The notes under the pieces are model-generated. The model made no database searches. It saw only the letters and a list, made by a program, of their open reading frames with translations, and had not been told where the DNA came from. The position numbers and the translations under genes are program-made. A stretch of 64,000 bases of DNA from Idiomarina rhizosphaerae (GTDB taxonomy: Bacteria > Pseudomonadota > Gammaproteobacteria > Enterobacterales > Alteromonadaceae), in assembly GCF_024159085.1 (NCBI RefSeq), contig NZ_JAMZDE010000008.1:1-64000 (forward strand). The letters are read 5' to 3'. Shown piece after piece: positions 3,912 through 64,000 of this stretch; position 1 is the stretch's first letter, and each line of letters opens with the position of its first letter.

Positions 3912-4562
3912 ATGAACCGTATTATTTTAGCGATCCCCAATCCCATTATTAGCGCCGGCATGGCCGCCGTTCTGCAGCAACACTTCAGTGACCAAATATT
4001 GACCGTAACCGGTATTGCCGATTTACGCCGTGCTTGCTACGAATATGAAGACGCTGTGGTTGTTTTGTGCAGCCGACTTGGCGGTGCTGCAACAGTGGAA
4101 CACTGGCGTCGCTTGAAGCGCCGTCACTGCGATCTAAAGCTTATTGTCTGGGGTAGCAGCCAACAAGATATACTTGATTTTCAGTGCGGTATTAGCGTTG
4201 TCGACGGATACTTACTGGACTCGTGTGACAGTGCCGATTTAGTTCAGGCTATTCGTTCGTTGAAGCAGGGCAATGTTTTTGTTGCTGCGCCAGTCGCTGC
4301 TTACCTTGCACAGAATCCGCGTTCGCAGCAGCAAAAAACAATGGTTGATATGCTGAGCGAGCGTGAGCTTCAGGTGGCACAAATGCTCAGTCGGGGTATT
4401 CGGGTAAGAGAAATATCCCGGCATTTATGCATTAGCAGTAAAACAATAAATACCTTCCGTTACCGGATTTTCTCTAAACTCGGTATCGATGGTGATGTAC
4501 AATTGTCTCATCTTGCAATTCAGTCGGGTCTTGTCGACTTAATTCAGTTTGAAGGTAGATGA
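3912..4562 (+). CDS. LuxR-type response regulator, GacA/UvrY-like, with degenerate receiver
   Basis: 216 residues. The C-terminal LuxR helix-turn-helix is intact (LSERELQVAQMLSRGI ... ISSKTINTFRYRIFSKL). The receiver keeps the length and several framework residues of GacA/UvrY but lacks the phosphorylation chemistry. The paired acidic residues are replaced (I8-P9), the phospho-acceptor Asp is Cys53, and the lysine of GYLTKG is Asp (GYLLDS). ATG 3912 is chosen over GTG 3906 because AAGGA at 3899-3903 is 8 bases away. The gene overlaps uvrC by four bases (ATGA), the conserved uvrY-uvrC arrangement. GacA/UvrY normally activates small CsrB-type RNAs; here control by a kinase is doubtful. Confidence 0.88.
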   Translation: MNRIILAIPNPIISAGMAAVLQQHFSDQILTVTGIADLRRACYEYEDAVVVLCSRLGGAATVEHWRRLKRRHCDLKLIVWGSSQQDILDFQCGISVVDGYLLDSCDSADLVQAIRSLKQGNVFVAAPVAAYLAQNPRSQQQKTMVDMLSERELQVAQMLSRGIRVREISRHLCISSKTINTFRYRIFSKLGIDGDVQLSHLAIQSGLVDLIQFEGR

Positions 4563-6397
4563 CAGAAGGTAATCAACAAAAGCAGTTTGACAGCGACAAC
4601 TTTCTTCGTCACCTGACTCACCAGCCCGGTGTTTACCGGATGTACGATGAGTCGGGTGACGTGATTTATGTTGGTAAAGCAAAAGATTTGAGAAAACGTG
4701 TGTCCAGTTACTTTCGGGAGAAGGTAGACCGGATGAAAACACAGGTGTTGGTTAAACAAATAGCGTCTATGGACGTTACTGTTACCAACACCGAAGCCGA
4801 AGCGTTAATATTAGAAAACACCTTTATAAAAAAATATCGGCCACGCTACAACGTCTTGTTGCGTGACGATAAATCGTACCCCTATATTATTTTAACCGCT
4901 CACCAGCACCCTAAGCTGGGTTTTCACCGGGGCGCCCGGCGCGCGAAAGGCGACTATTTTGGTCCATTTCCTAATGGTTCAGCTGTGCGCGAGAGCTTAA
5001 ACCTGCTGCAAAAGCTGTTTCCGATCCGTCAGTGCGATGACTCGTATTATCGAGCCCGCACCAGGCCTTGTTTGCAGTATCAGTTAAAACGTTGCCTCGC
5101 GCCTTGCGTTAATGTGTGCACTGACGATGAATATAATGAGCAGGTGGGGTTGGCAAAACAGTTCCTGCAGGGTAAAAATCAGCAAGTTATTGATGAGCTG
5201 ATGAATAAAATGGAGCAGGCGAGTAAAGATCTCGATTTTGAACGAGCCGCTAGGTTTCGTGACCAGATAGCGGCACTGCGAAAAACTCAGGAACGTAACT
5301 CGGTTACCGGAAGTCAACAAGAACTGGATGTTATTGGTTTAGCGCGCGGTAATGGCATGACTACAGTGCAAATGCTGTTTATCCGGGATAATCATTTGCA
5401 GGGGAGTCGTAGCTACTTTCCTAAGGTACCGACAGATACCCCTGACGATGAAGTGCTCAGAGCTTTTCTGCTGCAGTTTTATTTATCGGATACAGCCGGA
5501 CGGAAAATTCCAAGAGAAGTGGTGCTTCCTGTCGATATTCAGCCTGATAACGTGCTTGCTGAAGTCATGAGTGACGCGTTGTCACAGCCAGTTAAGTTGC
5601 AGAGCTCGGTGCGCGGAGACAAGCGTCAGTACCAGTCATTGGCTCAAAAGAATGCGGTTAATGCGCTAGAGAGTCGCCTGAATCAGCAAAGTACGATGAA
5701 CCGCCGGACTCAAGCATTACAGCAAGTGCTGGAATTTGGGGTACCCATTCAGCGCATGGAGTGCTTTGATATTAGCCATACAATGGGTCAACAAACGGTG
5801 GCATCCTGCGTAGTGTTTGATCAAAACGGGCCTAAAAAGTCAGACTACCGCCGTTATAATATTACCGGTATAACGCCGGGCGACGATTACGCTGCCATGT
5901 CTAAAGCCCTGGCTAAGCGTTACGATAATGCCAAAGAGCAGGGCAACATACCAGATATTCTGTTTATCGACGGTGGTAAAGGCCAGCTAGCCCAGGCGGA
6001 GAACTACTTTAATGACTGGGGAAAAGAAGCGCCGGTATTAATTGGTGTTGCCAAAGGTGAGTCGCGCAAACCGGGCCTGGAAACTTTGATCATGGCGGGG
6101 AGCCATGAAACCATTCCGCTGAGTAAAGACGCCAGTGCGCTGCATTTGATTCAGCACATACGTGATGAGTCGCACCGTTTTGCCATAACCGGGCACCGGC
6201 AGAAGCGGGCTAAAGTTAAGAAAACCTCAACGTTAGAACAGATTGACGGGGTAGGAGCCAAGCGCAGACAGGCCATTTTGAAAAATCTAGGTGGATTACA
6301 GGAGGTAAAAAACGCTAGTATTGATAAGTTGGCCAGCGTACCTGGCATTAGCCGAGCATTGGCAGAGAAAATCTATTACTCATTTCGTGATGAGTAA
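4559..6397 (+). CDS. uvrC: Excinuclease ABC subunit C
   Basis: 612 residues, the usual UvrC length. UvrC makes both incisions in nucleotide excision repair with UvrA and UvrB. An N-terminal GIY-YIG nuclease domain is visible (GVYRMYD...VIYVGKAKDLRKR, about residues 20-45). The UVR motif (DLDFERAARFRDQIAAL) lies near residue 230. The central RNase H-like nuclease region includes ECFDISHTMG and FIDGGKGQL. A C-terminal double helix-hairpin-helix follows (IDGVGAKRRQAIL ... VPGISRALAEKIY). It overlaps the upstream regulator gene by ATGA, implying translational coupling. Confidence 0.98.
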   Translation: MTEGNQQKQFDSDNFLRHLTHQPGVYRMYDESGDVIYVGKAKDLRKRVSSYFREKVDRMKTQVLVKQIASMDVTVTNTEAEALILENTFIKKYRPRYNVLLRDDKSYPYIILTAHQHPKLGFHRGARRAKGDYFGPFPNGSAVRESLNLLQKLFPIRQCDDSYYRARTRPCLQYQLKRCLAPCVNVCTDDEYNEQVGLAKQFLQGKNQQVIDELMNKMEQASKDLDFERAARFRDQIAALRKTQERNSVTGSQQELDVIGLARGNGMTTVQMLFIRDNHLQGSRSYFPKVPTDTPDDEVLRAFLLQFYLSDTAGRKIPREVVLPVDIQPDNVLAEVMSDALSQPVKLQSSVRGDKRQYQSLAQKNAVNALESRLNQQSTMNRRTQALQQVLEFGVPIQRMECFDISHTMGQQTVASCVVFDQNGPKKSDYRRYNITGITPGDDYAAMSKALAKRYDNAKEQGNIPDILFIDGGKGQLAQAENYFNDWGKEAPVLIGVAKGESRKPGLETLIMAGSHETIPLSKDASALHLIQHIRDESHRFAITGHRQKRAKVKKTSTLEQIDGVGAKRRQAILKNLGGLQEVKNASIDKLASVPGISRALAEKIYYSFRDE

Positions 6398-6420
6398 AAA
6401 CAATAAGGAATCAGCGGATA

Positions 6421-6969
6421 ATGAAGTGGAATATCCCTAATATTTTGACCAGCTTCCGGATAGTACTCATTCCGGTATTTCTGGTGGTTTTCTATTTACC
6501 AATGGAAGATGCACGTTTCTGGGCTGCTTTTATCTTTTGGTTAGCTGCAATCACAGACGCTCTGGATGGCTATATTGCCCGTCGTTTTAACCAGTTTACT
6601 AAGTTCGGCGAGTTTCTTGACCCGGTAGCTGATAAAGCGATGGTGGTCGCTGCACTGGTTGTCATTGTAGAAGATTATAATTCTGCTTTTATTACCATTC
6701 CGGCGCTGACCATGATTTGCCGTGAGCTTATAGTCAGTGCGCTACGCGAATGGATGGCACAAAGCGGCCACAGAGCAAAAGTTGCTGTTTCGAATTTAGG
6801 TAAATGGAAAACAGTGGCACAGATGCTGGCCTTAATTGGACTGCTTTGGAATGCAAACGTCTATATTTATTGGTTATCGATGTTCTTATTCTATTCGGCT
6901 TTTGTTTTGACTGTGTGGTCCATGTGGGAATATTTACGCGGCGCCAAGAGCGAATTGACCAGAAATTAA
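6421..6969 (+). CDS. pgsA: CDP-diacylglycerol-glycerol-3-phosphate 3-phosphatidyltransferase
   Basis: 182 residues, an integral inner-membrane enzyme that commits CDP-diacylglycerol to phosphatidylglycerol and cardiolipin synthesis. The CDP-alcohol phosphatidyltransferase signature D-x2-DG-x2-AR-x8-G-x3-D-x3-D is complete (DALDGYIARRF ... GEFLDPVADK). Four or more membrane helices are seen. It starts 23 bases after uvrC and precedes the tRNA cluster, the order found in many gammaproteobacteria. Confidence 0.97.
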   Translation: MKWNIPNILTSFRIVLIPVFLVVFYLPMEDARFWAAFIFWLAAITDALDGYIARRFNQFTKFGEFLDPVADKAMVVAALVVIVEDYNSAFITIPALTMICRELIVSALREWMAQSGHRAKVAVSNLGKWKTVAQMLALIGLLWNANVYIYWLSMFLFYSAFVLTVWSMWEYLRGAKSELTRN

Positions 6970-58205: not shown

Positions 58206-58838
58206 ATGAAGTTTCATCAAACAACGGGAAAAGCAATAGTAGACAGCTCTTTTTCTCTCAATCAGCTACTGGTTTCTGCCGAACCATATTTATCAATATT
58301 AGATTCTCTATTCAGCTTAGCGACAATTATGGTAGCTGTCTTTGTCTATATTCGTTGGAAAAACGATGAATCAATAAAGCTCCTTTTAGGGGACTCTCAG
58401 AAATTAAAAAGAGAAGCGTACATTCTTGCAGCAATGCTGATCGAGACCATACATAAAACAACATCATTTTATGAGAGACAACACAGGGATGTAGAACATA
58501 ATCCTTTTCTTGATGGCGTAGAGGGCGGTAAGGTTCTTCAAGAAGTAACAAGGAAATACTTAACTGAGTTATTTCTATATAGAAGTAAAAAAATGGCGAT
58601 AATGGATGAGATTAGAAGTCTCAGCAGAAAAGAAATTACAGACATGGAAGATTTGGAAAAAGGTTATGAGGATATAGCTAACTTACTTAGTGAAATTGAA
58701 GAGCAAGAGAAAGATGAGAACTTTCCAGATTTCCTTAAAATGAAAAGAGAGCAATTATCGGAGAAAACTGTAAGAAATCGAGAAAAAGAGCTTTTGTTTA
58801 TAATTGAACTAGACCGAAGGATAAAAAAGCTTAAATAA
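58206..58838 (+). CDS. Unknown membrane-anchored coiled-coil protein
   Basis: 210 residues, no family recognised. One membrane segment (about residues 31-50, LDSLFSLATIMVAVFVYI) follows a short N-terminus. The remainder is helical and charged, with coiled-coil heptads (EDLEKGYEDIANLLSEIEEQEKDEN and the C-terminal REKELLFIIELDRRIKKLK). GGGGAAG upstream gives a good ribosome site. It overlaps the convergent DUF3653 gene by 8 bases at its end. It lies at the start of the accessory island. Confidence 0.7.
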   Translation: MKFHQTTGKAIVDSSFSLNQLLVSAEPYLSILDSLFSLATIMVAVFVYIRWKNDESIKLLLGDSQKLKREAYILAAMLIETIHKTTSFYERQHRDVEHNPFLDGVEGGKVLQEVTRKYLTELFLYRSKKMAIMDEIRSLSRKEITDMEDLEKGYEDIANLLSEIEEQEKDENFPDFLKMKREQLSEKTVRNREKELLFIIELDRRIKKLK

Positions 58839-59229
58839 CTTTACCCAGCCTTAATCTCAAACACTCTGATTCCTCCAAAATTCTCTCAACCGATTCAAGC
58901 ATCTCTTTCTGGTTAAGCTGACGGTTCTTAAACCGCTCCGTCAGCGTTCTCTGACTCCATTTGTACTGCTCGATGAACTCAACATCAAAAGCCGACACTT
59001 TACCTGTAGGAAAGTGAATATTGGTACCATCAATACGCCAGTTGCTAAAAGGCTCGTATTGAGGAAGCCAGCCGCGAGCCATAACATCCACATAACGCTT
59101 TATGACGAGCGGCGGGTTACCGTCAAACCAACGGTAAATCGTTTGTAGACTTACGCCAAAATGGTCAGCAGCAGCCTTATAGTTAAAGGCGAAAACGCGC
59201 ACAAAGTTTGTCTGAAATTCAGTTGCCAC
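58831..59229 (-). CDS. DUF3653-like phage-type helix-turn-helix protein
   Basis: 132 residues from GTG 59229, with GGAGG upstream. The N-terminal FVRVFAFNYKAAADHFGVSLQTIYRWFDG is a helix-turn-helix of the phage DUF3653 pattern, followed by NWRIDGTNIHFPTGKVSAFDVEF, also family-like. DUF3653 proteins occur in filamentous phages and islands of vibrios and relatives. The protein could regulate nearby promoters. Converges on the 58206 gene. Confidence 0.7.
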   Translation of the reverse strand: MATEFQTNFVRVFAFNYKAAADHFGVSLQTIYRWFDGNPPLVIKRYVDVMARGWLPQYEPFSNWRIDGTNIHFPTGKVSAFDVEFIEQYKWSQRTLTERFKNRQLNQKEMLESVERILEESECLRLRLGKVI

Positions 59230-59312
59230 GGTAAAACTTCCTCCTAAATACTAGAAATCATCTCAGGTTACTCGAGAGAACTAAAGACAGGCCTGGAAAG
59301 CACCTAAAACTT

Positions 59313-59372
59313 AGTATAACTTAATTGCGTATAATGTATATTATGTTAAATCATAACTATATCAGTATAACT
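59313..59372. promoter_or_regulatory. Repeats upstream of the DUF3653-like gene
   Basis: AGTATAACT occurs at 59313-59321 and 59364-59372, with an imperfect palindrome ATAATGTATATTAT at 59331-59344 between them. These could be operator sites of the DUF3653-like protein. The 269-bp gap to the frameshifted gene holds nothing else of note. Confidence 0.4.
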
Positions 59373-59498
59373 CTAGTACGAAGCACTTACTTTTGTAGTT
59401 CGCACATGTCATTGTCATTTTTCGCACACCATGTCATTAAGTTTGAGCCTACTCTATTATTGAATCAACGATATGTGAGTAAAGGTACGAAATTTTGA

Positions 59499-60223
59499 CT
59501 ATCCTGGAGGCTTTACAAAGAACTCTAGCGGCTTGCTGCTTCTCTCTGTATCCGCAGTGATTTTTATTTCTGGGCAATCTTGAACGATATCTCTTAGGCC
59601 TCCGGGTATATTAAAACATCGATGCGTTAGTTCTGATGAATCGCATTCCCCCAGAAGTATTCTAAACTCTCTTTGATAAGAGTATTGCTCTGCTTTATGA
59701 AAGACCGAGTGGCCGTAATAACCGCCTCGATAATAAGTAACAGCTTTTGAAGTCGTTGATGGCTCAACGGCCTGTATTCGGTTTATCAACTGATAAGACT
59801 GTTCAGGGCTAACGTAGGCATAGTAGGAACCAAATTCTTCACGTATACGCTCGAAATTGTGCTTCAACTTATCAAATTCCCGAACATCGCTTGGTAATAT
59901 CAAACTAGCCCAACAATGAAGCCAACCGTCTTTACGCCCCATTCGTAAGAGAAAATCACTTGCTTCACCGGCGAAGCGTCCATCAACTTCAACAGTAAGT
60001 GGGTTATCTCCCCGTATTGAGCGAACACTAAGCAAACAGGATTCTTCCTTATCACCAATCCCCTTTTCAGCCGTTTGCCGGTAATACTCGGGTGTATTGC
60101 AATATAAACAACCATCTAGAAATTGCTCAAGATGCGCTCTTTGCCGGAAAACTTGAAAAGTCCAAGGTACTGCCCCGCTTTCGGCGAATTTTCAACAGTA
60201 CTGTCGGTTAATGCGTTGCTCAT
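59499..60223 (-). pseudogene. Frameshifted gene, unknown conserved protein
   Basis: A start at ATG 60223 gives MSNALTDSTVENSPKAGQYL, then GLFKFSGKERILSNF, and a TAG at 60118-60116. Shifting one base back near 60119 gives a frame open to 59499, starting LDGCLYCNTPEYYRQTAEKG. That frame has no ATG/GTG/TTG before TTG 60035, although it is open back to 60191. The two halves join well, so a single-base deletion (or sequencing error) is likely. The intact product would be about 240 residues; family unknown. The alternative is a short protein from TTG 60035. Confidence 0.6.
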
Positions 60224-60241
60224 GTAATTTTCCGCTTAAGG

Positions 60242-60814
60242 TTACCGTTTGGGTGATACTTCTCCCCCAACAATCTTCCGACCAACATGCACCGCCGAAT
60301 CGAGTATTTCATGCAGCTCCTCTAAAGTTTCTAGATCGCCACCGGCACCTGCAACAAAGCCGTCAGTCGAGATGTCTTGAACAACTGAATCGATCAACTG
60401 ATGAAATCGGATTATTCTTGCGGATAGTTCTGGATGAAGAAGACCAATCTTAGAAATGTGCTCTTGATAAACCTGTGAGTAGTGCGCCGGGACTTGTGCA
60501 GCGAACTGAATCTTGTCATCCGGATTCTGTTTGAGATAGTCTATGTCTTCCTTTAAATCATGAACGTATTTCCTACGCTCTATGACCTCTAACAAAGCGG
60601 ATATTTCAGAAACAATTGCGATCTCTACAGACCGCTTCTCCTGCCTTAATTTTCTCTTCTCTAGAAGGAAACTAGGAAAGAAGGTAGAAACACCGCCAAC
60701 GAAAGCTCCACCAATAGCAGCTATAACCGGCAACCATTCGTTTTTCTCATCGGCGAACATCGACCGTAGAATGTCGATTGTCTGCGCAGCTTCCAGTAAT
60801 TGTTGTGTGTCCAT
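60242..60814 (-). CDS. Unknown membrane protein in the island operon
   Basis: 190 residues. One membrane segment (about 27-51, WLPVIAAIGGAFVGGVSTFF) is followed by a cytoplasmic helical region (KRKLRQEKRSVEIAIVSEISALLEVIERRKYV). No family recognised. GGGAG stands upstream of ATG 60814. It is 40 bp downstream of the HEPN-like gene and 18 bp upstream of the frameshifted gene, so they probably form an operon. Confidence 0.7.
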   Translation of the reverse strand: MDTQQLLEAAQTIDILRSMFADEKNEWLPVIAAIGGAFVGGVSTFFPSFLLEKRKLRQEKRSVEIAIVSEISALLEVIERRKYVHDLKEDIDYLKQNPDDKIQFAAQVPAHYSQVYQEHISKIGLLHPELSARIIRFHQLIDSVVQDISTDGFVAGAGGDLETLEELHEILDSAVHVGRKIVGGEVSPKR

Positions 60815-60854
60815 TCATACTCCCTATGAAATATAACGCTAAGACGACTCGATT

Positions 60855-61676
60855 TTAGAAGTCGGGAGCATCGTCTTGTTGTAAGTTTTCCGAAGTTTCA
60901 GACGTGATGCTCCTGATGATGAAGGTACCGCTGTCGATCGCGTGCCTGATCAATTCCGGTGGGCATGCCGACACACCATGTACATCGCTAGCGTTTCGTC
61001 GAAATGATCCCATAACGTAAGCGGCTTGATTGATCGCGCCTCGATAGTTTTGCCATAGCCTATTAACTTCATTGCTATCATCAGTCATCTGGTTAAACTT
61101 GTCCCGGTAGGCGGGCTCTAAGACAGCAAATGAACGCGACACCCTCTGCTGATATGAGTCGTCATTAGGGTTTCCAAGATCGTGTACTCTGTAGAGGTTG
61201 TTTGTGACTGCGTCTAATGCGCTACATACGGCGGTCATTGCACCCGAATAATCTCCTTCGCCAAACCGACGGTATGCTGTACGAAGAAGGTTCTTCACCT
61301 CTTCCGAAAAATCTTTGACGGCATCATCGATTTGAAAGTCCAGCGGACGAAGCTGTCCATCAACTAATTTCCACCCAAACCTCTGTGCGCAATCTGAGAT
61401 ACGCGTTTCAAGGTGACTGTTTTGTTCAAGCATCGCGGCTACAAGATTCTGTATCGCTTTGTCAGGATCAGGCTCTCTTGAAATTAGGCCGTCCAACGCA
61501 TCAAGGAGCTCTCCTTTTGATGCACCTTTGGCTGGTAATGACTTCTGTTGGAGGTGACCCAACTCTTCCACCGGTAACGCAGCCGCTGCTACAGCATCCT
61601 TTATCTCATTAAAGGTAAAACCATCTTTGACTGTTGGTCGAAGCGCCCGCCAAACCTTTTTTATTTCTACTTTCAT
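60855..61676 (-). CDS. Abi_C/HEPN-like protein, candidate abortive-infection RNase
   Basis: 273 residues from ATG 61676, with AAAGG upstream. The C-terminal half resembles the Abi_C region of abortive-infection proteins: YSGAMTAVCSALDAVTNNLY, then a conserved RNASDVHG with R227-N228 and H233. R-x5-H is the HEPN RNase motif. The N-terminal half is helical and unknown. It follows the gajB-like gene after 143 bp and leads the 60242/59499 genes, suggesting a defence cassette. Confidence 0.72.
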   Translation of the reverse strand: MKVEIKKVWRALRPTVKDGFTFNEIKDAVAAAALPVEELGHLQQKSLPAKGASKGELLDALDGLISREPDPDKAIQNLVAAMLEQNSHLETRISDCAQRFGWKLVDGQLRPLDFQIDDAVKDFSEEVKNLLRTAYRRFGEGDYSGAMTAVCSALDAVTNNLYRVHDLGNPNDDSYQQRVSRSFAVLEPAYRDKFNQMTDDSNEVNRLWQNYRGAINQAAYVMGSFRRNASDVHGVSACPPELIRHAIDSGTFIIRSITSETSENLQQDDAPDF

Positions 61677-61819
61677 TGTTTACCTTTGCGTAATGCCGCG
61701 CACTGGGGACGTTTTGAAGCCCAGCGGAAAAGTTATCCTACAGCATCGTCCTGCTAGTGTTAATTTACGAACGCAATATAATTCATGCTTGAGTGGCTGC
61801 ATGATAACTTAATGGACCT

Positions 61820-63580
61820 TTAATCATATTGATAGTTATATGTATTCAACATGTCAGAGGTTTCATACGGATCTCCACGTCGGGTTCTACGGCCATTTTC
61901 AGCAAATAAAAAAAGCTTTTCTTTTGCTCTTGACGCTATTACGTAAAGCATTTTGGATTGGGCATCAAGTCCCACTTGGATTGGCTGTTTATAGATGTCA
62001 TTCCAATGCGGGACAAAACCTTTCAGTAAACCGAATGCGATCACAGTCTTATATTCTTCCCCCTTTACCCCATGACAAGAGTTTATAACTATTCCAGTAG
62101 ACCTCTTAAAAAAACTCTTAAGAGCTACTACCGTATCCTCATATTGACCGTCGTTGTTTTCTATATTTGAAGTGGCTTTCTCAAAGAACAGATCAAGTTG
62201 TTCCTTTAGCAACAAATCATAAGCTAAATCTATGTCTAATTCGGACAGTATAAACTCAAAGCACTCTTTAAGGTATTTAGTGCCTACACCAGTATCACTG
62301 TGAAAAGAGTTAATTACTTTAAGCAGTTTTTTAGCAGTTAAATCACGAGTGTGATGATGTTTCTCTACGAGATTATTTAACAACTCATTTGCCCATCTAA
62401 CACGAGAGCTGAACAACTTTTCTGATGGTTCAGTCAATACCAACTTGGAAACTATCAACCAAAAATTGTCTTGTTGACCATGAAACGGCGACAAAGCTGG
62501 GGCATCAAACTTCACATTCGGTAATAAAGTTATGAGCTTCTTTGTCATTGACCTTATTGGTGCCCATTGAGGAGCGATAACACATATATCATTTTCACTT
62601 GTACCGCTATTGAGCTCTGTTTGAATTAACTCTGATATGGCTTCAGCAAGATGCTCTTTGTCAACTGATTGATTGAAAAAGCTTATGATCCCTTGCTCAT
62701 TTCTATGCGCCGCTTTTGATACTCCTCCTTGAACGCCTCTAAAAGCCGAGAAATAGTCAACCAGTCTTTGCGTAGAGCGGTAATTGTCGCTAAACGTAAA
62801 TTGGTTGATATTGCTACCCACAAATTCAGCGTTCAACTCTGCTAAGGTAAGAGATTTACCTCCAATGCCTCCATAAATTGCTTGATTTTCGTCGCCTACG
62901 ATAAACAAGGAAGGTTTTATATGTGACTCGTTAAATATTTTGGCTAAAATTGCATACTGTAAATCTTGAGTATCTTGCACTTCATCAACACAAATATGAG
63001 TGAATATATTGCTTAAATTCTGGGCGATTTCTGGCCGCGTTTCCATTAACTGAAATGCAAAATAGAGTGACTGGTCAAAATCAATTTTCTTTCTTGAAGA
63101 TAGTATCTGACGGTATTCTTGCTCCACTGCTTCTGCTCGAGCATTTTGGTTTTCAACCACACCCTGCCTATTAAAGGTTGTATTTACGTCATCGAAAAAA
63201 CCTAAACCTTTATCAGATTTTAATTTGCTAAGTATTTTTCTTGTCTCAAACTCATCCGCAACGGAGTATCCCGAGTTAAGTGTTGCAGAGTATGAGGCAT
63301 AAGGCTTTATTAACCACTCAAGGGCAAAGGAGTGAATCGTCCCAGCCCAAACGCGACCATTTTCTATGGTGAAACTTTCAGCTAATCTAGCCTTTATTTC
63401 ATCAGCAGCTCGGTTTGTGAAGGTTACAGCGAGCACTTTGTTGTTTTTATGCTTTAACTCCTCAACAGCTTTCGCTATCCAGGCCGTAAGTGCTCTAGTT
63501 TTTCCGCTCCCGGGACAAGCCGCAACGTATGCATTACCATTGTAGTTTACAGCTGCATGCTGTTCATTGCTTAACTTCAT
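61820..63580 (-). CDS. gajB: UvrD-like helicase, GajB-type
   Basis: 586 residues. Superfamily 1 helicase motifs: Walker A ACPGSGKTRAL (K27), motif Ia VTFTNRAADEI, Walker B VDEVQDTQDLQY, motif III VGDENQAIYG, motif IV FSDNYRSTQRL, motif V INSCHGVKGEEYKTV, and motif VI VIASRAKEKLFLF. It starts two bases after the stop of an OLD-family gene. OLD nuclease plus UvrD helicase is the Gabija arrangement, in which GajB enhances GajA nicking of phage DNA. B. cereus GajB is about 494 residues, so this one is longer. Confidence 0.85.
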   Translation of the reverse strand: MKLSNEQHAAVNYNGNAYVAACPGSGKTRALTAWIAKAVEELKHKNNKVLAVTFTNRAADEIKARLAESFTIENGRVWAGTIHSFALEWLIKPYASYSATLNSGYSVADEFETRKILSKLKSDKGLGFFDDVNTTFNRQGVVENQNARAEAVEQEYRQILSSRKKIDFDQSLYFAFQLMETRPEIAQNLSNIFTHICVDEVQDTQDLQYAILAKIFNESHIKPSLFIVGDENQAIYGGIGGKSLTLAELNAEFVGSNINQFTFSDNYRSTQRLVDYFSAFRGVQGGVSKAAHRNEQGIISFFNQSVDKEHLAEAISELIQTELNSGTSENDICVIAPQWAPIRSMTKKLITLLPNVKFDAPALSPFHGQQDNFWLIVSKLVLTEPSEKLFSSRVRWANELLNNLVEKHHHTRDLTAKKLLKVINSFHSDTGVGTKYLKECFEFILSELDIDLAYDLLLKEQLDLFFEKATSNIENNDGQYEDTVVALKSFFKRSTGIVINSCHGVKGEEYKTVIAFGLLKGFVPHWNDIYKQPIQVGLDAQSKMLYVIASRAKEKLFLFAENGRRTRRGDPYETSDMLNTYNYQYD

Positions 63581-63582
63581 AC

Positions 63583-64000
63583 CTACCTGTCCAGCAGCTC
63601 AATCAGGTAAGACAAATCGTCATCAGCACATCTTTCTTTAAACTCGTCAATGCACGCATTCATATCTGTTTGATTATTGCTAAAGAATTGTAGTGGCTTT
63701 TCATCATCTTCTAATGCTGGCATGGGCTTAGAAAGCCTGTGCCAGCACATCTTATAAAGAATTTTAGGTGCAAGTTTGTAGCCACATGAAAATGCAATTG
63801 CATCTAATATGTAACTTGGGATGTAAGTTTGAGAGGTCACTTTTTCCGACAACAAAAGAGCTAGCCATCCTTTGCCAACCTTCTCCGCAAGACGAAGTAT
63901 TTCTTTTCCAAATACTTCTACAGCATGATTTTCAAGCAAATTTGATGATTTAGTTATGTTGGCTTGCTGTTGATAAATAGAGGAAAGCACTTCTTTTGCT
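63583..64000 (-). CDS. gajA: OLD-family ATPase/nuclease, GajA-like (3' end only)
   Basis: The frame is open to the window end (64000) and ends at TAG 63585-63583, so only the last 138 residues are seen. The segment EKVGKGWLALLLSEKV and the following YIPSYILDAIAF resemble the C-terminus of OLD/GajA nucleases. The ATPase and TOPRIM domains lie outside the window, so the call depends also on the adjacent GajB-like helicase, which is two bases downstream. Confidence 0.7.
   Translation of the reverse strand, partial: AKEVLSSIYQQQANITKSSNLLENHAVEVFGKEILRLAEKVGKGWLALLLSEKVTSQTYIPSYILDAIAFSCGYKLAPKILYKMCWHRLSKPMPALEDDEKPLQFFSNNQTDMNACIDEFKERCADDDLSYLIELLDR

Follow-up and report, generated by a model that had tools for sequence, protein, structure and literature searches.

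Three genes lying side by side in the same orientation next to a Gabija system raise the question of whether they form one defense system or are separate passengers that happen to sit together. The window, that is, the whole stretch of 64,000 nucleotides analyzed here, corresponds to positions 1-64000 of a 680-kb contig. On the minus strand of the contig, gajA, gajB, gene 1, gene 2, and gene 3 follow one another in this order, all codirectional, with gaps of 40 bp between genes 1 and 2 and of 18 bp between genes 2 and 3; rechecking the coordinates left this layout, as given in a first-pass annotation of the window, unchanged. Gene 1 (60855-61676) encodes a distant Abi_C-type HEPN protein of 273 amino acids with an R226-x6-H233 motif. 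The product of gene 2 (60242-60814) is 190 residues long and displays one N-terminal hydrophobic (transmembrane) segment by simple hydropathy, in agreement with its earlier description as a single-pass membrane protein. Gene 3 (about 59499-60223) is interrupted by a frame shift early in its reading frame and shows a sub-threshold likeness to DUF2971. The Gabija neighbor was also correctly named, as PADLOC models match both of its proteins: gajB, a UvrD-like helicase gene (61820-63580, PDLC00127, E 8.6e-201), adjoins gajA, encoding an OLD-type ATPase/TOPRIM protein, whose C-terminal part occupies 63583-64000 (PDLC00072, E 2.9e-24) and whose ORF is complete on the contig, running on to position 65682. 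Rfam gives no match at gathering score in the region, and promoter and terminator scans of it return the chance level only.

Codirectional genes in a defense island can mimic one system although they are separate passengers. The first-pass annotation had proposed a single three-gene defense system, in which genes 2 and 3 could be sensor or immunity partners of an RNase, and had named co-occurrence in other genomes as the check, neighbors not conserved together counting against it. ORFs of at least 50 amino acids from 80 loci outside the genome itself were compared with the three proteins. Once repeat fetches are merged (L043 and L044 repeat the contigs of L042 and L041; L003, L004, L020-L023, and L045-L048 are shorter versions of places also covered at length), 32 distinct places remain: 12 for gene 1, L005 and L006 included, 10 for gene 2, and 10 for gene 3. 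The flanks covered extend over 1.5 kb for L005, L006, and L050; in most of the remaining places they reach about 5-7 kb and are shorter at contig ends. None of the 32 places holds relatives of two of the three genes; in particular, genes 1 and 2, the pair looked for in a HEPN-TM system, which was judged by gene pairing alone, are found together at no locus. In Marinobacter salexigens, a gene 1 relative of 89% identity stands without genes 2, 3, and Gabija nearby: the DNA match (87%) is confined to 60853-61692, which extends only 16 bp beyond the start of the ORF, and other genes surround it. Conversely, the sole near DNA match to the region in the plasmid collection, on a Pseudoalteromonas shioyasakiensis megaplasmid, is Gabija (82%, gajB and part of gajA), and none of genes 1-3 occurs in the 32 kb read around it. 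G+C content also varies, from 0.438 in gene 3, 0.449 in gene 2, and 0.478 in gene 1 to 0.389 in gajB and 0.396 in gajA. The neighbors are hence not conserved together in the places compared, and neither the single system nor the partner roles of genes 2 and 3 are supported: genes 1-3 and Gabija are probably separate passengers of one mobile-looking element and not a new three-part system.

Ends and an empty site provide a simple test to tell one system from separate passengers. The element is 6,822 bp long (contig 59394-66215, of which 59394-64000 falls within the window) and holds genes 1-3 and Gabija; its ORFs above 300 nt are those of gene 3 (part), gene 2, gene 1, gajB, and gajA. It is bounded by 26-nt inverted repeats that are 88% complementary, the left one, starting with TGTAG, at 59394-59419 (plus strand) and its partner at contig 66190-66215, past the window end. 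Short subterminal repeats are present at both ends, and CATGTCATT recurs 25 nt inward of the left terminal repeat. The 680-kb contig contains no further end copy with fewer than 8 mismatches, the four 8-mismatch matches of the left repeat being at chance level (shuffled mean 4.2), and the ends were found neither in plasmids (left and right, distant blastn) nor in viral contigs (exact pattern). The left end is located 42 bp from an intact dif-type (XerCD) site at 59326-59351 (plus strand), an exact match with 0 expected by chance that we take to be dif from its consensus, while the other end abuts the 3' end of lysR. At dif, the two copies of the chromosome are resolved from each other.

The interval between a lon-like gene and lysR was compared in 14 congeners. 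A dif site with at most one mismatch is found in 12, of which 11 have an intact lysR next to it and one (L070) a lysR fragment; as for the remaining two, L079 is a contig end and in L082 neither dif nor lysR was found. In the genome studied here, dif and lysR are 6.9 kb apart. Joining the flanks of the element with a 4-bp duplication yields the empty site of congener L069 with 2 mismatches in 80, against at least 25 for eight other offsets; since the target has the same outermost T/A, the duplication may also be 5 or 6 bp long. To note, L069 carries, across dif and in the opposite orientation, a remnant of gene 3 (4320-4436) that comprises 117 bp of its 5' part at 82% DNA identity, from which it follows that the gene 3 family had visited this locus before. 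A second element, of 2,407 bp, is found in congener L080, also 42 bp from dif, with ends differing by 3 and 4 mismatches from the left repeat. Its two ORFs above 300 nt encode a LysR-type regulator and a Cons_hypoth698 protein, presumably YeiH-like. When its flanks are compared with the empty site found in L081, the 4-bp offset is again the best one, with a weaker fit of 14 mismatches in 80 against at least 27 at other offsets. The duplicated bases match the local sequence of each species, CTTT here and CATT in L080, as would be expected if each element had inserted on its own. In all, only these two such elements have been found.

No recognized transposase or integrase gene is present in either element, and tnsB and tnsC are absent from the 6.8-kb one, whereas its edges, terminal inverted repeats with a 4-bp target duplication (5 possible), are of the Tn7-like type. 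The target duplication of Tn7 is usually 5 bp, and the 4 bp seen here count against the reading favored below. On the Pseudoalteromonas megaplasmid, genes for TnsA and TniB are located about 5 kb from the matching Gabija; the protein encoded in the TnsB position matches no Pfam family. A tblastn search with this TnsA/TnsB-position/TniB set found no relative in the 680-kb contig (one of nine contigs) or in the congener intervals, and the Pseudoalteromonas region with these query genes contains no copy of the element ends. In this megaplasmid (L117, 7319-19945), Gabija, with gajB annotated in two pieces, lies with restriction and GIY-YIG genes near TnsA/TniB.

On the other side of dif, a second, separate segment (58206-59351 of the window) extends between the lon-like gene and dif. 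It harbors the gene of an HTH protein (58831-59229, minus strand) with a weak likeness to VC1465/Xer activation factors (NF040522, E 0.018, with a score of 15 bits where the cut-off is 70), which makes it a possible Xer activation factor. Five of the 14 congeners have homologues in the same interval, and six have, on the lon side, degraded copies of dif with 5-7 mismatches. The HTH gene is taken as part of this dif-associated segment and not of the 6.8-kb element. In congener L077 (3109-10397), a filamentous-phage-like set lies between a degraded dif copy and dif, its Zot-family gene being assigned by Pfam and the other members by size and order.

Three other explanations of the block have to be weighed against these observations. 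A true multi-gene system would have gene 1 as a HEPN toxin, gene 2 as a membrane sensor, and gene 3 as a third component, perhaps like the HEPN-transmembrane defense system that is mentioned in PMC11087260. The shared orientation, the short gaps, and the membrane-protein gene that precedes the gene 3 relative in four of nine other loci, as in the window, would fit such a system, and the rarity of the gene families keeps the sample small. It is nevertheless very unlikely, as no locus is common to any two families and gene 1 does without genes 2 and 3 at 89% identity in Marinobacter; moreover, gene 3 is broken, so that any system needing it would be dead. Integration at dif by a Xer-dependent element, either an IMEX or a relative of filamentous phages, draws on the 42-bp distance to an intact dif and on the congeners with dif-associated segments and degraded dif copies on the lon side, one of them with a Zot-family gene. 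The edges speak against it, since they consist of inverted repeats and a short target duplication and not of a dif crossover, and the second dif copy to be found at the edge of an IMEX is absent from the lysR end (up to 9 mismatches); this explanation, too, is very unlikely.

Alternatively, the block might descend from a complete Tn7- or Tn5053-like transposon and have become immobile through loss of the transposition genes; the insertion point would then be shared by old inheritance, with replacement of the cargo. TGT...ACA ends with subterminal repeats and the related Gabija near Tn7-like genes are compatible with this history. We hold it to be rather unlikely, though clearly ahead of the two former explanations, because the two elements differ in cargo and in their duplications, each of which matches the local sequence, and relatives of each genome have an empty site, all of which points to separate insertions. 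The reading that we favor, and regard as likely, is that a 6.8-kb transposon-like element devoid of recognized transposition genes, which would be mobilized in trans, carries genes 1-3 and Gabija as its cargo, and that gene 1 would be a lone abortive-infection effector.

Gene 1 has no convincing match in Pfam, NCBIfam, PHROG, or PADLOC. The name Abi_C-like, given in the first-pass annotation, is a fair one but weakly anchored: the Pfam Abi_C model (PF14355) does not match the gene 1 protein at its curated cut-off nor any protein of the genome, and it detects one of nine aligned proteins, gene 1 included, at E 0.002. A profile-profile comparison (hhalign) with three Abi_C-type proteins, however, reaches E 1.7e-4 over 127 columns, at a probability of only 50%, against E 0.46 and 0.31 for two control pairs. 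At the place of the gene 1 motif, LRNK/R..DAHG is found in L052 and L053, relatives' proteins that pass the Abi_C cut-off, and in L084, their relative from a viral contig. Homology of gene 1 to Abi_C-type proteins is therefore likely, as judged from these sequence comparisons. In an alignment of 11 proteins, from which the weak partial matches L005 and L006 (residues 72-154) were left out, R226, D231, V232, H233, and G234 are invariant. The motif had been read as R227-N228...H233, R-x5-H; these residues exist, but position 227 is R in 4 of the 11 proteins and S in 7, so that the conserved arginine is R226 and the spacing becomes R-x6-H. Conservation in homologues holds once the arginine is thus moved, and the spacing falls within the R-x4-6-H range of HEPN domains (PMC3710099). 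The earlier view of gene 1 as encoding a HEPN/Abi_C-type protein, located in a defense setting and carrying a conserved R...H motif, is thereby supported.

The structure model of gene 1 is poor (pLDDT 57.7, alignment of 4 rows). It places the motif at the end of helix 201-229 and before helix 240-267, with pLDDT below 50 for residues 224-239. A PDB fold search with it gives no match at E<=0.001; the top-ranked hit, a Csm6 chain, has an E of 0.72 and is not used as evidence. Searches of PDB chain sequences with the protein and three alignments returned nothing usable, the best match being a designed repeat protein (E 0.019). PADLOC REase_II, matched by one of nine proteins of the family at E 0.014, was considered too weak, and the N-terminal part matches no named domain.

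Relatives of gene 1 are rare. They occur in 5 of 394 genomes of the order, its own included (three full length, two partial), in 1 of 369 genomes of the class, its own alone, and in 7 of 72,556 plasmid records, the match covering at least 80% of the protein in 5 of these; two Burkholderia glumae plasmid matches (48% coverage) were left out of the locus set. GenBank phages have none (0 of 50,697), and viral contigs none with the first alignment (A1) and two with A4, the same two being found with A6. Among the plasmid relatives, L007 and L011 are near restriction-modification genes and L010 and L011 near trb genes, while L008 and L009 have no trb genes and no clear defense gene beside the relative. 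In L024 the gene lies upstream of the Septu genes PtuA/PtuB, about 2 kb from a tyrosine-integrase gene, and in L025 it overlaps the 3' end of a CI/S24-type repressor gene by four bases. In L041, a prophage-like contig, a distant relative (5746-6519) is inserted between DUF2460 and baseplate-hub genes, and in L042 (5746-6519) it occupies a like tail module, as judged by matching ORF order. L008 and L009 apart, the places named here are defense or moron-like settings, in line with the favored reading. The tail/baseplate surroundings of L041 and L042 are unusual for an Abi gene, and of interest given the tail-triggered protein Tha discussed below.

Gene 2 is found in 1 of 384 genomes of the order, its own alone, by a single-protein search; its relatives are located on plasmids and in prophages. 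Five of its ten places (L033-L037) are viral contigs that resemble one another and stop, on one side, a short distance from the gene, and two Vibrio plasmid matches were left out, their identity being equal to that of the fetched one. The relative of L013 belongs to a prophage packaging region, and that of L033 is beside portal and terminase genes. In L032 it precedes a TIR-effector-like gene by 4 bp, and in L012 a DarT-like gene is 1.8 kb away. On two Acinetobacter plasmids (L014, 3201-3877; L015, 4757-5438), it directly follows a conserved 63-residue gene, 62% identical, with which it perhaps forms a two-gene unit. The PADLOC LeoB match of gene 2 (E 0.0043, 14 bits) was too weak to be retained.

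The frame shift noted earlier in gene 3 is real in the assembly: the ATG frame stops after about 35 codons, a different frame resembling the relatives runs to 59499, and intact relatives exist. Barring a sequencing error or a programmed shift, gene 3 is, from its sequence, a pseudogene. Relatives occur in 5 of 384 genomes of the order, its own included, with the single protein and in 7 of 394 with a profile, amid varied neighbors; one Yersinia ruckeri plasmid match and L051, a profile match that the gene 3 protein itself does not find, were omitted. Membership in DUF2971 was rejected (2 of 7 rows, best E 0.2), and PHROG 26561 (E 0.0019) was too weak to be used. The structure model of a relative has a pLDDT of 50.8 (4 rows), and its PDB fold search gives no match at E<=0.001. 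The membrane-protein genes counted above, in four of the nine loci (L026, L029, L038, and L040; L050 omitted from the count), encode proteins without mutual BLAST match. A fixed membrane partner was not retained; gene 3 is possibly a conserved part with an exchangeable one, which serves as a lead only. A Yersinia ruckeri plasmid (L016, 260-1795 and 3903-5438) carries a duplicated three-gene set that includes a gene 3 relative.

Taken together, site-specific transposition of a cargo-only element in trans, with gene 1 as a single-gene abortive-infection RNase, is the most likely account of the sequence data. The congeners lack this block, which lies next to dif and lysR and has matching ends and a short flanking duplication. 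A transposase of the TGT...ACA class (Tn7/Tn5053/IS21-like) would move it in trans, aiming at the dif/lysR junction. Gene 1 is probably an RNA-cutting suicide protein that would act alone: its N-terminal part (about 1-120) may hold the HEPN domain in check and sense a phage cue, upon which the C-terminal HEPN domain (R226, D231, and H233) would, by analogy with its family, cut RNA and stop the cell. Genes 2 and 3 would be independent accessory genes and not partners of gene 1. More tentatively, with somewhat less than even confidence, the two elements might represent a family of ends-plus-cargo elements, moved in trans, that insert exactly 42 bp from dif and swap defense and other genes. Equally tentatively, the cargo of that family would be Gabija and a HEPN suicide RNase here, and a putative transporter with a LysR-type regulator in the congener. 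If true, transposase-anchored surveys would overlook such elements; if mobilized in trans, they would offer a light vehicle for defense genes, aimed at the replication terminus.

Several known systems resemble parts of this locus. Proteins of the Abi_C (PF14355)/AbiJ-type HEPN group have in common with gene 1 a C-terminal HEPN-like region, an LRNK.GDAHG-like motif, the R-x6-H spacing, and an occurrence as lone genes in defense settings, whereas the Abi_C model misses the gene 1 protein, whose N-terminal part has no named domain. Tha of Staphylococcus aureus is described as a stand-alone HEPN protein of a prophage, expressed from the cI promoter and activated by tail proteins (PMC11087260). Both Tha and the gene 1 protein are about 300 residues long, with no recognized N-terminal domain and a C-terminal HEPN domain (PMC11087260). 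The cI promoter of Tha (PMC11087260) can be compared with the repressor gene that the relative in L025 overlaps, while the motif spacing differs, being R-x4-H in Tha (PMC11087260) and R-x6-H here. As to Gabija (GajAB), both genes are present and adjacent, and genes 1-3 are no part of it.

The cargo of Tn7-like transposons is reported to include Gabija/OLD (338) and AbiC pfam14355 (48) (PMC8649781). These transposons share with the present element TGT...ACA ends, subterminal repeats, a fixed insertion point, and Gabija and Abi_C cargo (PMC8649781), but the element has no recognized tns genes. As described in its text, that survey scanned around tnsB, so that elements without it would be missed (PMC8649781). 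Literature searches combining dif, XerCD, and Gabija returned no paper, which is limited evidence; those on dif with Tn7-like elements or Gabija, IMEX with defense, Tn5053/res/dif, and nonautonomous Tn7-like elements, judged by titles and abstract openings, showed no cargo-only dif-adjacent element among the papers listed. Gabija and Abi_C are known as Tn7-like cargo, while cargo-only elements at a fixed point adjacent to dif appear, on this limited evidence, to be new in the literature searched.
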